The position numbers were made by a program, and so were the translations under genes. The notes beneath the pieces were generated by a model. That model was not told the origin of the DNA. It was given only the letters and a program-made list of their open reading frames with translations, and searched no databases. Positions 55,896 through 62,559 of a DNA stretch of 64,000 bases are shown piece by piece; position 1 is the stretch's first letter; each line of letters begins with the position of its first letter. Source of the DNA: Oscillatoriales cyanobacterium CG2_30_40_61 (GTDB lineage Bacteria > Cyanobacteriota > Cyanobacteriia > Cyanobacteriales > Microcoleaceae); the NCBI GenBank assembly GCA_001873365.1, contig MNYZ01000049.1, forward strand, positions 1 to 64,000. The letters are read 5' to 3'.

Positions 55896-56161
55896 ATTTA
55901 TCCTCTACTTTGATGGTAATTAATTGATCGAAAATTAACAATATTAGGAAGGTTCTAAGTTAGAGATTTCCTATAACACTTTCTTACTATATCTGACTTT
56001 ATTAGGATAGTTTATCTTATTTTCACGACTTTTTGAGTACGGTTCACCGAAAATTAGGTGCTAGGTGTTGGGAAGTCTGACCGGGAGAAAAGAATATAAC
56101 AGTTAATCTTAAAATCTGAAGGTTTAAGGGAAATTAATATAATTAAAGCATTTCGGACAGT

Positions 56162-56236
56162 GACAGGACTTGCGCAAGCATAGTGTGCAGTAAGCCAGCG
56201 AACGCTGCCAAGTGTTCAAGTATTTGCGCCAGCAAT
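56162..56236. repeat. Degenerate acaggacttgcgcaag repeat with internal palindromes
   Basis: acaggACTTGCGCAAGca..ccagcgaacgctg..tttgcgcc; resembles the acaggacttacgca hairpin at 62372. Confidence 0.6.
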
Positions 56237-56428
56237 ATAAAATTTAGACACAAAAATTATACTGATTGACAGATATTTAACAGTCAATTCAATTGAGAAG
56301 TTAAACTGGTCTAATACCGAAGAAAAATCAGGAAAGTTAATCAAAATCAAGAATTTTCCTAAAAATCAAAAAGTCCAATTCCCAGCTATTTATACAACTG
56401 ATTTACACTTGCTATATATTCTCCTAAT

Positions 56429-56962
56429 TTACTCTTTATATTCTACTTTTCTGGGTTCGCCTACTTCACTATTACCAAAGCTCCTAATCATAATTTCTTT
56501 AAAAGCATCAGCACGTTCAATACTGATAAAAGATGCTATTTGTATCGCATTTTTACCATTCGTTATTCTAACCATTGGATAAGCATCTCCACAAAATTTA
56601 GACCTCACAGCTTGTAAATTTATTTCACTGTATTCAATAAAAACTGGATAAAAACTAACTGGATAAGCAGAAGAATTTGTTGGTTTGGTATCGCCACAGC
56701 TTGGTAGAGGAAATGCGACGTTATCAAAAGGATTAGAAGTTGTAAGAGACTGTGTAGAGTTAGATGGCGATCTTGTCACTGATGGAGAATTTGAGGAAGT
56801 AGAATTAGCAGAATTAATATTAACAGTGGATTTAGTAAAATTCTGTTGAATTGTATTCCAGGCAGCTTGACTGCCTAAAATTAGCACAGCACCACCCACC
56901 ATAACACCCATCAAAATGCCATAGATTTTCCAGAGTTTTTGTTTGTTTGTTTGGTCATTCAT
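56429..56962 (-). CDS. Membrane-anchored protein; shares N-terminal anchor with the next gene; C-terminus SPOR-like (tentative)
   Basis: MNDQTNKQKLWKIYGILMGVMVGGAVLILGSQAAWNTIQQNF; C-terminal MVRITNGKNAIQIASFISIERADAFKEIMIRSF. Confidence 0.75.
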   Translation of the reverse strand: MNDQTNKQKLWKIYGILMGVMVGGAVLILGSQAAWNTIQQNFTKSTVNINSANSTSSNSPSVTRSPSNSTQSLTTSNPFDNVAFPLPSCGDTKPTNSSAYPVSFYPVFIEYSEINLQAVRSKFCGDAYPMVRITNGKNAIQIASFISIERADAFKEIMIRSFGNSEVGEPRKVEYKE

Positions 56963-56990
56963 AGTTTTATTTGTATTTTTTTAAGGGACA

Positions 56991-57599
56991 TCATTGATTT
57001 TTTTCAGATCTTTCAGATATTTTCCAATTACCGTTTTCTTGCTTTAGTGTAAAACGATAAATACTGGAATCTGTCGTAGATTTGTTGAGAGTCTCATTGC
57101 TATAAAAATAAACTACCTGTTCAATAGAAACCTCAACTTCTGCTTTATTGTCAGTAGCAGAAAAGTAGCCTGTTCCTTGAACTGAGCGACGGCCGTAGTG
57201 ATAGTAAGCGTTATTTTGCTGTAACCAGTCTATTGAACCACCTGGTTTCACAATATCATTATAGACAGTATCAGTGGTCAAGCTGGCAGCTAGTTGGCGA
57301 TCAAAGGGAGGAGCAAAAATCTTTTCTTTCGCTTGCAGATAGCCCTCAATCAGATTAACAGCTTCTTCTTGAGTTAAAGTATTTGAAGCTGCTGGCTGAG
57401 GTGGTGGGGTAATATTACTAGGTGTAGATGTTAAAGATTCAGTGGCTGAACTAGAAGGGGTATTAGATTTAGCTAAATTCTGTTGAATTGTATTCCAGGC
57501 AGCTTGACCGCCTAGAATCAGTACAGCACCGCCTACCATAAGACCCATTAAGATGCCGTAAATTTTCCATAGTTTAGTTTTTTCCTGTTGGTCATTCAT
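56991..57599 (-). CDS. Membrane-anchored protein with ARC6/IMS-like (DUF4101) C-terminal domain; track ORF starts at 57638
   Basis: MNDQQEKTKLWKIYGILMGLMVGGAVLILGGQAAWNTIQQN; LIEGYLQAKEKIFAPPFDRQLAASLTTDTVY...SIDWLQQNNAYYHYGRRSVQ...YRFTLKQENGNWKI. Confidence 0.78.
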   Translation of the reverse strand: MNDQQEKTKLWKIYGILMGLMVGGAVLILGGQAAWNTIQQNLAKSNTPSSSATESLTSTPSNITPPPQPAASNTLTQEEAVNLIEGYLQAKEKIFAPPFDRQLAASLTTDTVYNDIVKPGGSIDWLQQNNAYYHYGRRSVQGTGYFSATDNKAEVEVSIEQVVYFYSNETLNKSTTDSSIYRFTLKQENGNWKISERSEKNQ

Positions 57600-57676
57600 T
57601 TGCCTTTCCTTAAAATTATAAAGACTTCTAATCATCAAATCAGGCTCATAGTTATATCTTTAAATTTTTCAAATAA

Positions 57677-58564
57677 CTATTCGGCTTTTTTCTTTTTTTT
57701 CTTTCGATCTGGAACCATTTGTGCATCTACCATGTCTGTAAAATTGGAGTTAATCCAGAATTCGTCTTCATTATCATTAGACTGCTTTTGAACATCATTA
57801 GACAGCTTTTGAACGAAGGACAATGAAGAACCTTCAGGTGATTGGATAGTTGCTTTATTATTAAGGTCTAATAACAGCGTACAAACACCGCTAATTGTCA
57901 TAAATGTAGCCACAGAACTTTTAGCGGTATTAATGACAGTTTTTCCAAATTCATCTATCAAGGTGTGAAATCTGTTTCCTAATTCCCTGAAAGCATCTCC
58001 TATTTTGGAAAAAATATTATCAGCTTTGCTCTGTGCATTTGAAATAGCAGCATCAATTTTCTTCAGAATTTCTTCTATTTTAGAATTAGCATCCTCAAGA
58101 TTCTCTTTCTCGTCATTTACAGCATCTTTGGACTCACTTAGGTCAACATCATCGCACTTTCGCTCTGTTTCTTCAAGTTCCGTCAAAGCGTCATCACGGT
58201 TTTTAATTTGTTCTGTAATTTCAGACTGTTTTTGTAGCATATCTTCTTTAATTGTTTCCAGCTTGCCTCTGGATTCATCAATCTCGCTTGCTTTTTGTTC
58301 CATTTTTTGGTTAATTTCCTGGTAAGCAATTTGCAAAGCATCTCCTTCGAGTTCACCGAGTTTCTCCGAGATGGATTCTAAGTTTTGATCAAGATTCTTA
58401 AGTTCTTCCGTCTTAGTTTCAATAATTTGTATCTGCTCATCAACCTCTTGATCGGCTTGCTCAATATCCTCAACTAAAACCTCCAGGCTGTTACTATCAG
58501 AAACATCTCCCTGATTTTTTCGCTTCGAGTCGGCTGCTTTTTTGGATTTTTTGAAGTCACTCAT
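57677..58564 (-). CDS. Long coiled-coil protein with one hydrophobic segment and a Lys-rich C-terminus
   Basis: Extended E/K/Q heptad-like sequence; ATFMTISGVCTLLLDL; C-terminal PDRKKKKKKAE. Confidence 0.75.
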   Translation of the reverse strand: MSDFKKSKKAADSKRKNQGDVSDSNSLEVLVEDIEQADQEVDEQIQIIETKTEELKNLDQNLESISEKLGELEGDALQIAYQEINQKMEQKASEIDESRGKLETIKEDMLQKQSEITEQIKNRDDALTELEETERKCDDVDLSESKDAVNDEKENLEDANSKIEEILKKIDAAISNAQSKADNIFSKIGDAFRELGNRFHTLIDEFGKTVINTAKSSVATFMTISGVCTLLLDLNNKATIQSPEGSSLSFVQKLSNDVQKQSNDNEDEFWINSNFTDMVDAQMVPDRKKKKKKAE

Positions 58565-58569
58565 GGCTA

Positions 58570-61302
58570 CTAATTACCTCCAGTTTTCCTAGATAAGATT
58601 TGAATTTCATACTCAAAGCGTTGCTTTTGCTCTTCTTTTTGTTTGATTTCTTTCTTAATACCCTCTTTAGCTACATCTGGTAGATTACTTTCTAACGGCT
58701 TCTTCAAACTGATGATATCATCATGCAACCGAGAAATCGCAGCCTGAAAAGTTAAAATTAACTGCTCTCTGTCAGGCTCCATAAACTCACACATAGAAGC
58801 AATAACATCATCGTCTGTAAAAAATGTTTCTAGTTGTTCTCTGACTCCCGATTTATTCTTGAAATTCTCTGTCGCTACCCGACGAGCGGTATCCCAACCA
58901 GGGACATAATAGAAAGCTTCACCAGGTGAAAAAATACCTGATAACTGTGCTTCACCTTCGGTTAAACACATTGCCCTACCGAGATATTCTCTATCATCGG
59001 GAGAAGGTAAGCGGTGCATTAGCTTTAAATTTGTAGCATCTACAATCGATTGTGCCAAAGCTGCTGGCGATTGATCGACGACAATTACTCCTTCTCCTGC
59101 TGCACGCATTTCACGCATGATTTGAGCAAACTTATCAACCACTTGAGATTTTGAATTAGCCTCATCTCCAGAAGTTTGGACTTTTCCGAGCATATTATGG
59201 GCTTCTTCAACTAAAATTACATGGCGTAAATCTAAATCTGTTGCTCTTTCACCCGTGCGTTGTGGCTGAAACTGTCCAATTCTGACAGTACGGATATACT
59301 CGAAAACAAAAACTAGCATGAACAGAGAAAATAAAGATTGTTCTTCTTTATTTAACCCACCGAGTTCAAAAATCACGGGTTTGCTAAGAAGTTTCGCAAA
59401 TGGCAGGGGCCTGTTTGCTTGAAGCATTGAACCCTCCCCTCTTTTTGAAACGAGCCGATACAATCTGGCTTTGAGCGCTCCTTTAATGCGATCGCCTACT
59501 TCTTGATCGCTTCCATAATTCTTTTGAGCTAAATCAAGAACTTTGTTATACAGTTCTTGCATTGTAGGAATTTCTAAGGATTTCCCCTCTTGATCAACAT
59601 CTCCGCCCCTGCTGTGAGCTAATTGCCACCCCTTCCTTTCATAATAGTAATCAATGGCTTCTTGAATAAAAGACGGTAGCGGATTTTCTAGTGGCAAGGC
59701 TCCCATGAAGCAGTCAAATATCCTCGAAATATGCTCCTGTAGTGCAATTCCAGGCATCACATCAAAGGGGTTAAAGCGAAAAGGAGTAATTAATTCTTGA
59801 CCTGGGGTAAAAATGAGCAAATCATCTTTAAATTCAGGCAGTCGCTTTAGATAACGATATTCTGGTGTCACCTTGGGATCAAATACCATAAAAGGTATTC
59901 TATGCTTTTCCCATAACTGAGTCAAAATGTTAAAAGTTGTCGTTGTTTTACCACTACCTGAACCCCCGACGACAAGCAGATGAGTTTTTAGCTGCTCAAT
60001 ATCAAATTCACAAACCTGATTAGTTTTAACATTGCGGCAGTAGCTACCGATAGTAATTGTTTTATGTTTTGTATCCTTGGATGTTTCAGAAACAAAAGCT
60101 GAACCTGTATCGTACTCCACACCTGCACAAGACTGATTGATGGGAATGGGCAAACGAAAAAATGCTGCCGCTTCATCCAAATCTACCAAGCGATGCAATC
60201 TTTTGAGCATTCCTGGCCCACCTGGAAATCCAGGCAATATTTTCCCTGATGTATCCCATATTCCAGGCGTACAACTTTGCTCGTTTATATTAACTTGCAA
60301 GGCTGTTTGTACTGCATATTGGCTATCAATAATTTGTACAACTCGCGGATTAATTGTATTTGCTGTACAGGTTGCAGCTAACTGATTAGCAACGCTTTGA
60401 CAAGCATCGCCATCAGGCGAGAAAACCCGGAAACTGTAGAGAAAAACTATCCCTGAATAATACCTTTTCTTGATATCTTCATAAACTGACTTGGCTCTTT
60501 GGGTATTGCTGTCAGGATCTATCTCTTCTTCACGGATACCCTTACTGATTTGATTTAGTGCCTCTAAGTATCGAGATATGATTTTTTTCTCATAGCCTTC
60601 AACCCTGGTCGGCACTAAGGTTAAATCAATACAAACAGGTTCTTCATATCCTTGCAGTTGCTCAAAAAAGGCTACCATATTATTGGCCTTATTAACTTGA
60701 ACGCCACCTGGGGAATAAAAAAAGTTTTGACGTTGTTTATCGTCGGGGTCTAGCCATTGAAAGACTTCTTCTGACTTGATAATTTCATAACAAGAAAGCT
60801 GTTGATTAAACTCAAGCCACGATGGTCGCCAGTCAAATTGATTTTTTGTATTCTCCTCAAATTGGTAGAGAGGCGACCTCAAGCTACTCTTAATATATTG
60901 CGCTTGCTTTTGTTGAAGAATATCTGCTATTTTTTGACTGCTATTGCTTGCCACCCGTGCGAGGAAATATACGTCTGTCGATTTAGATCCTTGTGGTGCT
61001 GGATGATAAACAATTCTCAGACTATACCCGCAAGAAGCGTTAGCACTGGGATCATCAAATTGGGTATAGCTGAAATAAGCTAAACTTTTGAGCAAACTTT
61101 TTTGCCACCCGGCAACAAAACCAACTCTTCCAGACGGATCTAAATGTTCCATAAGCTTAAATCGACCTGATGCAAAGTCAGAAACCCCTTTAAGCTTAAA
61201 GACATTTACAGCATGATAATTGTAAGTATCAACTTCTTGAGGCTGACCTGTTCCGGGTGAAGAACCTCTCCAGTATTTGATTCCAGATGTAGTAGTGATC
61301 AT
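58570..61302 (-). CDS. HerA/VirB4/FtsK-superfamily ATPase (DUF87-like)
   Basis: Walker A LLVVGGSGSGKTTTTFNILTQLW; Walker B DLDLRHVILVEEAHNML; downstream GEGVIVVDQSPAALAQSIVDATNLKLMHRLPSPDDREYL. Confidence 0.88.
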   Translation of the reverse strand: MITTTSGIKYWRGSSPGTGQPQEVDTYNYHAVNVFKLKGVSDFASGRFKLMEHLDPSGRVGFVAGWQKSLLKSLAYFSYTQFDDPSANASCGYSLRIVYHPAPQGSKSTDVYFLARVASNSSQKIADILQQKQAQYIKSSLRSPLYQFEENTKNQFDWRPSWLEFNQQLSCYEIIKSEEVFQWLDPDDKQRQNFFYSPGGVQVNKANNMVAFFEQLQGYEEPVCIDLTLVPTRVEGYEKKIISRYLEALNQISKGIREEEIDPDSNTQRAKSVYEDIKKRYYSGIVFLYSFRVFSPDGDACQSVANQLAATCTANTINPRVVQIIDSQYAVQTALQVNINEQSCTPGIWDTSGKILPGFPGGPGMLKRLHRLVDLDEAAAFFRLPIPINQSCAGVEYDTGSAFVSETSKDTKHKTITIGSYCRNVKTNQVCEFDIEQLKTHLLVVGGSGSGKTTTTFNILTQLWEKHRIPFMVFDPKVTPEYRYLKRLPEFKDDLLIFTPGQELITPFRFNPFDVMPGIALQEHISRIFDCFMGALPLENPLPSFIQEAIDYYYERKGWQLAHSRGGDVDQEGKSLEIPTMQELYNKVLDLAQKNYGSDQEVGDRIKGALKARLYRLVSKRGEGSMLQANRPLPFAKLLSKPVIFELGGLNKEEQSLFSLFMLVFVFEYIRTVRIGQFQPQRTGERATDLDLRHVILVEEAHNMLGKVQTSGDEANSKSQVVDKFAQIMREMRAAGEGVIVVDQSPAALAQSIVDATNLKLMHRLPSPDDREYLGRAMCLTEGEAQLSGIFSPGEAFYYVPGWDTARRVATENFKNKSGVREQLETFFTDDDVIASMCEFMEPDREQLILTFQAAISRLHDDIISLKKPLESNLPDVAKEGIKKEIKQKEEQKQRFEYEIQILSRKTGGN

Positions 61303-61310
61303 GGTGTTTT

Positions 61311-62183
61311 TTACTGAAACTCATCAAGGATATTTTTCTTGCTTTTGGGGATAATCTCTTCGTTTTTAGTCTCATTGATAAATTCTTTAACAACGGCACC
61401 TTTTTGAATCATATTTTCCCAGATAATTCTGTTAGTTAATTGATTCATTATTCTGTGAAAAACTCTCAAATCATCCCACTGAAAACTTCTTGATAGGCGA
61501 TTGCGCTTCAGTTCTTCTTCTTCCAAATTAATTTTTTCTATTTGCCTGTTTCTTTCTACATCCTCCTCCTGATATCTAGCCAGTTGCGAATCATACTTGA
61601 TCTTCGCTTTAGCTACCTCAGAATTTGATTGGATGTAAATTCCTAATGTACCAATTACTCCAAGTATGGCAAGGACTTGTAAACCCCCATTCCCTGAAAA
61701 AAACAGACCAGTAGCGATAAGTCCCAAGACAACTAAAGCTGCATCTGGAATTAAAGGTTGAGTGTTAACTGCTTGAGGTCGTGTTGGTGCAGAAGGCAGT
61801 TCAGGAGGCTTTTCTGGCTGGACAATCATCATCATTTGGACAGCTGCCCAATTGGAATCGCCGAAGTAATCAATACCAGCAATAAACTGCATATTGGTAT
61901 AAATTGAGTTCCGAAGAGTTGCTGCTATCCTATCTCTTCTATCCTGATCAATTTTGAGATTGCCTCTGGCACCTTCTACAATCCAACCCGCTTTGGTACA
62001 AACAATATCGATGGGAACTTGTTGTGCTTCTAGTTCCTCTTCGAGAAGTTTATATAAGCTGCTGGTGTCAAATTTAATCCCGTTTGTTTCGATGATATCA
62101 ACAGACTCCCAAATAACCCAGGATTGTGTTAGAATCGCTGGTGTTGGGGGCTGTACTGTGGTTGTTTTACTAAGATCACTCAT
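61311..62183 (-). CDS. Two-TM membrane protein with cytoplasmic coiled-coil, unknown function
   Basis: PDAALVVLGLIATGLFFSGNGGLQVLAILGVIGTLGIYIQ hydrophobic hairpin followed by charged helices. Confidence 0.75.
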   Translation of the reverse strand: MSDLSKTTTVQPPTPAILTQSWVIWESVDIIETNGIKFDTSSLYKLLEEELEAQQVPIDIVCTKAGWIVEGARGNLKIDQDRRDRIAATLRNSIYTNMQFIAGIDYFGDSNWAAVQMMMIVQPEKPPELPSAPTRPQAVNTQPLIPDAALVVLGLIATGLFFSGNGGLQVLAILGVIGTLGIYIQSNSEVAKAKIKYDSQLARYQEEDVERNRQIEKINLEEEELKRNRLSRSFQWDDLRVFHRIMNQLTNRIIWENMIQKGAVVKEFINETKNEEIIPKSKKNILDEFQ

Positions 62184-62372
62184 GGTCTAACTCCTCTGGG
62201 TGCAGGAAAGAATTGACTCGAAAAACCTTCCGTTCCTTAGACTACAGCTAAATGCTCCGTTAGAAACCAGTAAATTTACTGGTTTTTAACAAGTATCTTT
62301 TAACTCAATAAAATCTTAAACTTCAGTAATTTACTTAGACTTTGATAATTTATTAACACATTGTAATAAGTA

Positions 62373-62415
62373 CAGGACTTACGCAGCTACGCATAGGGTA
62401 GCTGCGTAAGTCCTG
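62373..62415. repeat. Perfect hairpin CAGGACTTACGCAGCTAC-7 nt-GTAGCTGCGTAAGTCCTG
   Basis: 18-bp exact inverted arms, 62373-62390 / 62398-62415. Confidence 0.95.
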
Positions 62416-62559
62416 AGTGATTTATTTTTGATTGATAAAGTGAATATCGGGAACTTGGGACATATTCTCAGCTTATAAAGCTAATTTAGACTTTTTTGGG
62501 CTTCAAATCTATTAAAATCCCATTATTCCCGATTCTCAGCTATAGATTAAGAATACTTC

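Follow-up and report, generated by a model that had tools for sequence, protein, structure and literature searches.

A mobile operon around a HerA-type ATPase in a cyanobacterium suggests an undescribed protein-export device

Introduction

Motors of the HerA/FtsK superfamily are usually read as DNA pumps. The window analysed here, a 64,000-nucleotide stretch of a cyanobacterial genome, encodes such a motor together with four proteins of membrane or coiled-coil type, which raises the question of what a motor in this company would move. The original prediction saw a compact operon around a HerA/VirB4-like ATPase and proposed a membrane-tethered motor serving DNA translocation, defence or a cell-surface function. 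HerA/FtsK domains have repeatedly been captured by defence systems (PMC10853773), and type VII toxins use FtsK/HerA ATPases (PMC3482391). Herein, we report that this motor has a distinctive front domain in common with the motor of a second gene cluster of this genome, one that carries toxins. The kinship suggests that the operon encodes an undescribed machine for protein export and not one of the known systems of defence or DNA transfer.

Results and discussion

Five genes form a rare and conserved operon

Five consecutive open reading frames, named A to E in transcription order, were confirmed by ORF calling on the minus strand at positions 56429-62183. The intergenic gaps are 8, 5, 77 (38 with a TTG start of D) and 28 nt, as first described. 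In the window, the operon is flanked by the grpE-dnaK-dnaJ-tusA-rsgA and clpB genes. Searches of the five proteins against Pfam, PADLOC and NCBIfam returned no family that names the system and no whole-operon match, in agreement with the proposal that it is not an already named one. The same libraries recognised no toxin or immunity domain in A-E and, as anticipated, no nuclease or relaxase beside the ATPase.

The order A-B-C-D is kept in Tychonema bourrellyi (locus L026; B 88% identical), in genome G060 (L031; 69%) and in genome G098 (L032, on the same contig as L028; 67%), so the arrangement exceeds what chance would give; A-E is a genuine, rare and conserved operon. The recurring order in several cyanobacterial loci is A, B, C and then one to three TM-anchored periplasmic proteins. 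A Planktothrix MAG (L027) has a partial copy broken by frame interruptions (B 98%), another cyanobacterial MAG (L030; 90%) has a partial copy that begins at the end of B and includes three anchor paralogues, and in Phormidesmis (L029; 60%) the copy comprises A-B-C with C apparently split, no D-type gene being seen at that locus. Across the loci, orthologue identities ranged from 40 to 99% for A and from 59 to 89% for B (98% for the interrupted L027 copy), and dN/dS values against Tychonema were 0.39, 0.16 and 0.38 for A, B and C, respectively. Close relatives of B were found in 3 of 291 sampled genomes of the order (G000, G060 and G098), and C was found in exactly those three (3/276 sampled genomes). 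The profile of A, searched against a phylum sample of 386 genomes, matched only this genome apart from one weak match that was judged to be chance. The orthologous operons are flanked mostly by housekeeping genes. A viral origin was set aside, because a pattern scan of IMG/VR viral contigs gave no relatives and phage records gave only two weak matches.

The operon is a mobile insertion

The related genome G291 (same genus, ~93% nucleotide identity) has an empty site that lacks exactly positions 56164-62415, the 6,252-bp segment that carries A-E. In G291 the clpB-side flank meets the rsgA-side flank at a single AGTGA, whereas in the window AGTGA stands on both sides (56159-56163 and 62416-62420) as a target-site duplication. 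The outer ends of the segment are CAGGACTTGCGCA and TGCGTAAGTCCTG. The left end is a 13-bp terminal inverted repeat (CAGGACTTGCGCA; 56164-56176, plus strand), and the right end is a 43-nt palindrome of the same terminal repeat (CAGGACTTACGCA...TGCGTAAGTCCTG; 62373-62415). The 13-mer end motif occurs in 108 copies in this genome, versus 0 for the reversed control. The exact empty site, the inverted repeats and the target-site duplication indicate that the operon entered inside, or as, a unit with miniature-transposon ends, and at this site it is a mobile insertion. It either moved as one transposon or was recombined into a resident copy.

Such precise insertion with inverted repeats and a 5-bp duplication would also fit the idea that A-E is carried by a transposable element and helps that element to move. 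We regard this as extremely improbable, considering that the orthologous operons lie at other loci in other genera, that homology in the Planktothrix MAG stops before the right inverted repeat, and that no transposase or recombinase is present inside the 6,252-bp unit. Given that the operon was recently inserted here and that its orthologues lie elsewhere, a functional reading of the dnaK/dnaJ/rsgA...clpB neighbourhood was also dropped; that region is simply the insertion site.

At 108 sites the genome harbours members of one abundant family of miniature transposons, which have CAGGACTTRCGCA ends and duplicate 5 bp of their target. Of five short elements (~92-112 bp) with these ends that were examined, three showed the 5-bp duplication, and longer units of 0.8 and 1.5 kb (L100 and L101) have the same ends.

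Gene B encodes a HerA-type motor

Gene B (58570-61302, minus strand; 910 aa) carries one motor domain, a 430-aa N-domain ahead of it and a C-terminal coiled coil. Both reported motifs were located: Walker A, GGSGSGKTTTT, at residues 446-456 (GGSGSGKT, aa 446-453, at 59944-59967, minus strand) and Walker B, VILVEEAH, at residues 695-702 (59197-59220, minus strand), of which EEAH is invariant in the family. Pfam PF01935 (DUF87/HerA) matched B with 48.5 bits against a cut-off of 23.2 (1.5e-12). The B profile matched essentially HerA structures in the PDB, most of them antiphage or repair HerA, and the only match to a secretion ATPase was a weak P-loop match to DotL/IcmO with a broad profile. On sequence grounds, B is a member of the HerA superfamily, as originally assigned. 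The AF2 model of B, built from six sequences, was poor (pLDDT 42.6).

Like the HerA/DUF87 family (archaeal HerA-NurA, antiphage HerA-SIR2 and HerA-DUF4297), which provides its best solved-structure matches, B has a RecA-like core, GGSGSGKT, EEAH and a sensor-like DQ.P. Unlike that family, B has an N-domain of another class and a C-terminal coiled coil, and its partners are a 2-TM protein and TM-anchored periplasmic proteins rather than a nuclease. PADLOC mad8 (9e-18) and HerA models matched the motor region of B. The PADLOC and NCBIfam matches are motor-level, and all fall far under the curated cut-offs where such exist; the named HerA equivalogs of NCBIfam gave no full-length match (26-29 bits versus cut-offs of 800-970). 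NCBIfam NF033849, a serine-rich protein of anaerobes, has the motor region in common (2e-18 for B, 1e-45 for the best in the family), but differs in its N-terminal part, and B scores 65 of the 650 bits required. For Mads defence, B is a motor-only match, and A, C, D and E matched no other mad component in PADLOC. A Zorya ZorA/ZorB stator pair was not found: PADLOC returned weak matches of the TM anchors to ZorB (0.011 and 0.031) and of a coiled coil to ZorA (0.021).

Since the motor core of B is closest to HerA, the main rival to an export function is a membrane-tethered DNA motor that acts against invading DNA at phage genome entry or conjugation, with B pumping or extruding DNA, C as a clamp and D and E as wall anchors. 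The structure, mad8 and HerA-model matches agree with it, and the operon is rare, patchy and mobile, like accessory defence genes. However, no NurA, SIR2 or DUF4297 nuclease partner is present in the operon or was seen at the orthologous loci, the named HerA models are far below cut-off (26/800 bits), the orthologous operons have mostly housekeeping flanks, and none occurs among viral contigs. We therefore consider a DNA motor of this kind rather unlikely, and the specific tie to defence or DNA translocation that had been envisaged was not found.

The N-domain of B is not VirB4-like

With an N-domain, a superfamily motor and a length of about 900 aa, B resembles VirB4 of type IV secretion. The N-domain (aa 1-437; 59992-61302, minus strand) gave a probability of only 0.1% by hhalign against the N-domains of VirB4 proteins (TrwK/TrbE), the VirB4 profile comprising two sequences only. 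The CagE_TrbE_VirB N-domain PF03135 was found in 0 of 60 genomes of the order, this one included, with a positive control genome. A VirB4 identity of B was dropped on these two results. Other type IV secretion genes (VirB3, B6, B8-B10, relaxase) were not detected among the operon proteins with Pfam and NCBIfam.

CedB and CedD of Sulfolobales are HerA-clade motors with VirB4-like N-domains (PMC11868833), and they resemble B in having an N-domain and membrane partners. The NCBIfam CedD model (NF053655) matched all 19 of 19 B-family members (best 1e-22), and a distant relative of B in Rhodococcus sits in a relaxase region, both in favour of a derelict or simplified conjugation or DNA-uptake device of VirB4 or Ced type. 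Such an origin is nonetheless highly improbable: B scores 51.5 bits against a CedD cut-off of 600, the N-domain tests disfavour VirB4 and conjugation, and no relaxase, VirB6/CedA-like channel or pilin gene was recognised in A-E.

Membrane and coiled-coil partners

Gene A (61311-62183, minus strand; 290 aa) encodes an alpha/beta domain (~aa 20-123), two TM segments (~147-185) and then a long coiled coil, so the two-TM, coiled-coil description of the first gene was correct; the protein is known from no other kind of operon. No reliable Pfam match was obtained for A, C or E. The AF2 model of A reached a pLDDT of 72; Foldseek with this model gave nothing at E below 0.001, and VIA-align gave a best Z of 7.4 for KA1-like and other alpha/beta folds, which is within the chance-arrangement range and excludes no family. 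Equivalence of the A domain with the FHA-type membrane protein of another operon was ruled out (hhalign 4%).

Gene C (57677-58564, minus strand; 295 aa) encodes a coiled coil (~27-175), a weakly hydrophobic segment and a charged tail. The coiled coil and poly-Lys tail noted earlier are both present, the Lys-rich tail being particular to this strain among the orthologues. C had no WXG/LXG match in Pfam or NCBIfam. Within C, positions 57773-57814 hold two 21-nt tandem copies (a V-Q-K-x-S-N-D repeat) not seen in the orthologues.

Gene D consists of an N-terminal TM anchor, a Ser/Pro linker and a periplasmic ARC6-like IMS domain (PF13355, 61.2 bits versus a cut-off of 22.8, 1.7e-16). It probably starts at the internal ATG at 57599, because its homologues start there (56991-57599, minus strand; 202 aa), and the C-D gap is therefore 77 nt; the longer TTG reading spans 56991-57638 on the same strand (215 aa). 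Gene E (56429-56962, minus strand; 177 aa) combines a D-type TM anchor with another periplasmic domain, SPOR-like by eye and without a Pfam hit. The common anchor of the two short proteins was borne out: it spans ~44 aa with 84% amino acid identity and is encoded by a 134-nt repeat (84% identical), after which D and E diverge completely. Anchor paralogues carry two other soluble domains in Tychonema and three in L030, and genome G292 has one extra anchor paralogue ahead of its D and E copies. Since these paralogues differ between genomes, D/E-type proteins are exchangeable modules. The membrane- or coiled-coil character assigned to the partners thus held for A, C, D and E.

A cell-envelope or cell-wall maintenance complex, an ATP-driven assembly acting on peptidoglycan or division through the periplasmic domains of D and E, would account for the IMS domain, for the domain differences between genomes and for a TM-anchored VanY-like protein (by eye) that follows the D orthologue of G098 after 2 nt. 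We judge it decidedly unlikely. Only 3 of some 280-290 genomes of the order carry the operon, which argues against a core envelope function, and HerA/FtsK motors are not known to act in wall synthesis.

A second operon links the motor to polymorphic toxins

A search with the periplasmic domain of E led to a second locus, present in the own genome (contig C102; L133:7459-13824) and in genomes G126 (L134) and G239 (L135). There, one gene encodes a HEAT/coiled-coil/TM protein of 682-827 aa (truncated at the contig edge in G239) with an E-like C-terminus (36-38% identity). The next gene encodes a 684-695-aa protein in which a B-class N-domain is fused to an FtsK/SpoIIIE motor (Pfam 5e-15). Behind this motor follow a helical protein of 72 aa, whose last residues are RWG, and another protein in which a homologous helical N-domain of ~75 aa is fused to variable C-terminal regions. 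The fused or downstream domains include CdiA_C (9e-12), EndoU (5e-10) and others, with GIY-YIG just under cut-off (9e-4) and an REase-like domain judged by eye; small genes after the toxin domains are candidate immunity genes by position only. The FtsK-type motor (strong matches) and the helical pair were each found in 16 of 281 genomes, and 15 genomes had both; the second-operon genomes are the own genome, G126, G239 and 13 more.

A constant N-domain, variable toxins and candidate immunity genes are thus seen in the second operon. Judged from its domains, the second operon is a polymorphic-toxin operon with type-VII-like logic. WXG/LXG superfamily membership of its helical proteins is not established, since the LXG model matched only at E 0.017, below cut-off. 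The only literature found on A-E or on cyanobacterial type-VII-like systems was a footnote from 2012 that mentions WXG proteins together with a three-domain ATPase for several lineages, cyanobacteria among them (PMC3482391).

The N-domain of B matched that of the second-operon motors by hhalign with 97.1% probability (E 5.8e-11), and with 98-100% via intermediates, compared with 0.1-9% for unrelated N-domain classes, indicating that the two are homologous. This kinship, the IMS domain of D and the mobile insertion are additions to the original prediction, of which the operon, motor family and partner types stood, and the VirB4 likeness and the defence or DNA tie did not.

A-E as a putative export machine

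Given that the N-domain class of B and the E-type periplasmic domain are common to the toxin system, and that a coiled-coil protein is encoded behind the motor, we propose, with a probability of about 0.4, that A-E is an envelope-anchored, ATP-driven translocation machine with protein cargo, a cousin of the cyanobacterial type-VII-like polymorphic-toxin export system. At the inner face of the cytoplasmic membrane, B, probably a hexameric motor, would use its N-domain to dock to the 2-TM protein A. C, encoded directly behind B, is probably the protein that B moves, or else a cargo adaptor, and the direction would be outward. D and E, each with one TM segment and an exchangeable periplasmic domain, could extend the contacts of the machine to the periplasm or cell wall.

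In favour of export, the E-type domain forms the C-terminus of a TM protein directly upstream of FtsK-type motors, the own genome included, and WHH/colicin-DNase genes, themselves with SMI1/KNR4 or DUF6985 neighbours, lie next to more distant relatives of B. Against it, the operon has no recognised toxin or immunity domain, the motor of B is HerA-like rather than FtsK/EccC-like, and HerA relatives of known function act on DNA. Furthermore, A and C showed no sequence link to the toxin operon, and the E-type domain also occurs in proteins remote from any toxin-operon motor, in unrelated contexts.

Type VII secretion (EssC/EccC FtsK-like ATPase with WXG100/LXG helical substrates) likewise uses a membrane-associated FtsK/HerA-superfamily ATPase, and the related operons resemble it in having helical-hairpin proteins in tandem, of which one is fused to variable toxins. 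In contrast to the tandem FtsK domains of EccC/EssC, B has one motor domain, with no FHA and no TM segment; the window operon has no WXG100 protein, and the host is diderm.

The wider B family

The B family comprises 27 members, from cyanobacterial chromosomes and from plasmids of Priestia, Hymenobacter, Streptomyces, Rhodococcus, Lactococcus and others. By hhalign, one N-domain class (97-100%) unites window B, L033/L034/L041, L042/L043 and the second-operon FtsK-type motors; actinobacterial and Hsp70-associated members form another class, with 0.1-11% between classes. The neighbours include HEAT/coiled-coil TM proteins, FHA or TPR/DnaJ TM proteins, Hsp70, dynamins, WHH/colicin-DNase nucleases with SMI1/KNR4 or DUF6985 genes, and a putative zinc peptidase. 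L033/L034 encode HerA-type motors related to B over most of the length of B, behind a HEAT/coiled-coil TM protein that matches that of the toxin operon (26% over 162 aa, 1e-8). A coiled-coil protein directly behind the motor occurs in several branches and, like the L033/L034 arrangement, speaks for the export reading.

A broader, tentative possibility is that cyanobacteria possess a family of type-VII-like exporters united by one unnamed N-domain in their motors, the FtsK-type members exporting polymorphic nuclease toxins and A-E being a mobile HerA-type branch that exports C and swaps its D/E modules. The operon and its relatives suggest a branch of motors that works with membrane proteins and helical cargo; in the sister operons, nuclease toxins and candidate immunity genes join this set. 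If true, type-VII-like toxin export would extend to diderm cyanobacteria, with a testable gene set in bloom-forming filamentous species.

Three further arrangements were noted among the relatives. On Lactococcus plasmid pB26B (L052) and an Exiguobacterium plasmid (L122), a HerA-type ATPase gene comes first, then a gene for a WHH/colicin-type DNase together with a candidate immunity gene (DUF6985 or SMI1/KNR4); in Lactococcus, two dynamin-family genes precede the ATPase. In the cyanobacterial loci L044-L047 and L053, B-family ATPases stand beside divergent Hsp70-like proteins, GTPases and a putative zinc metallopeptidase; this operon type is distinct and conserved. The operon at L036, L037 and L040 combines an FHA-3TM protein, a 94-aa TM protein, a TPR protein and pseudokinase-like TM proteins with a B-family ATPase, and is reminiscent of the EssC/EssB parts of type VII secretion.
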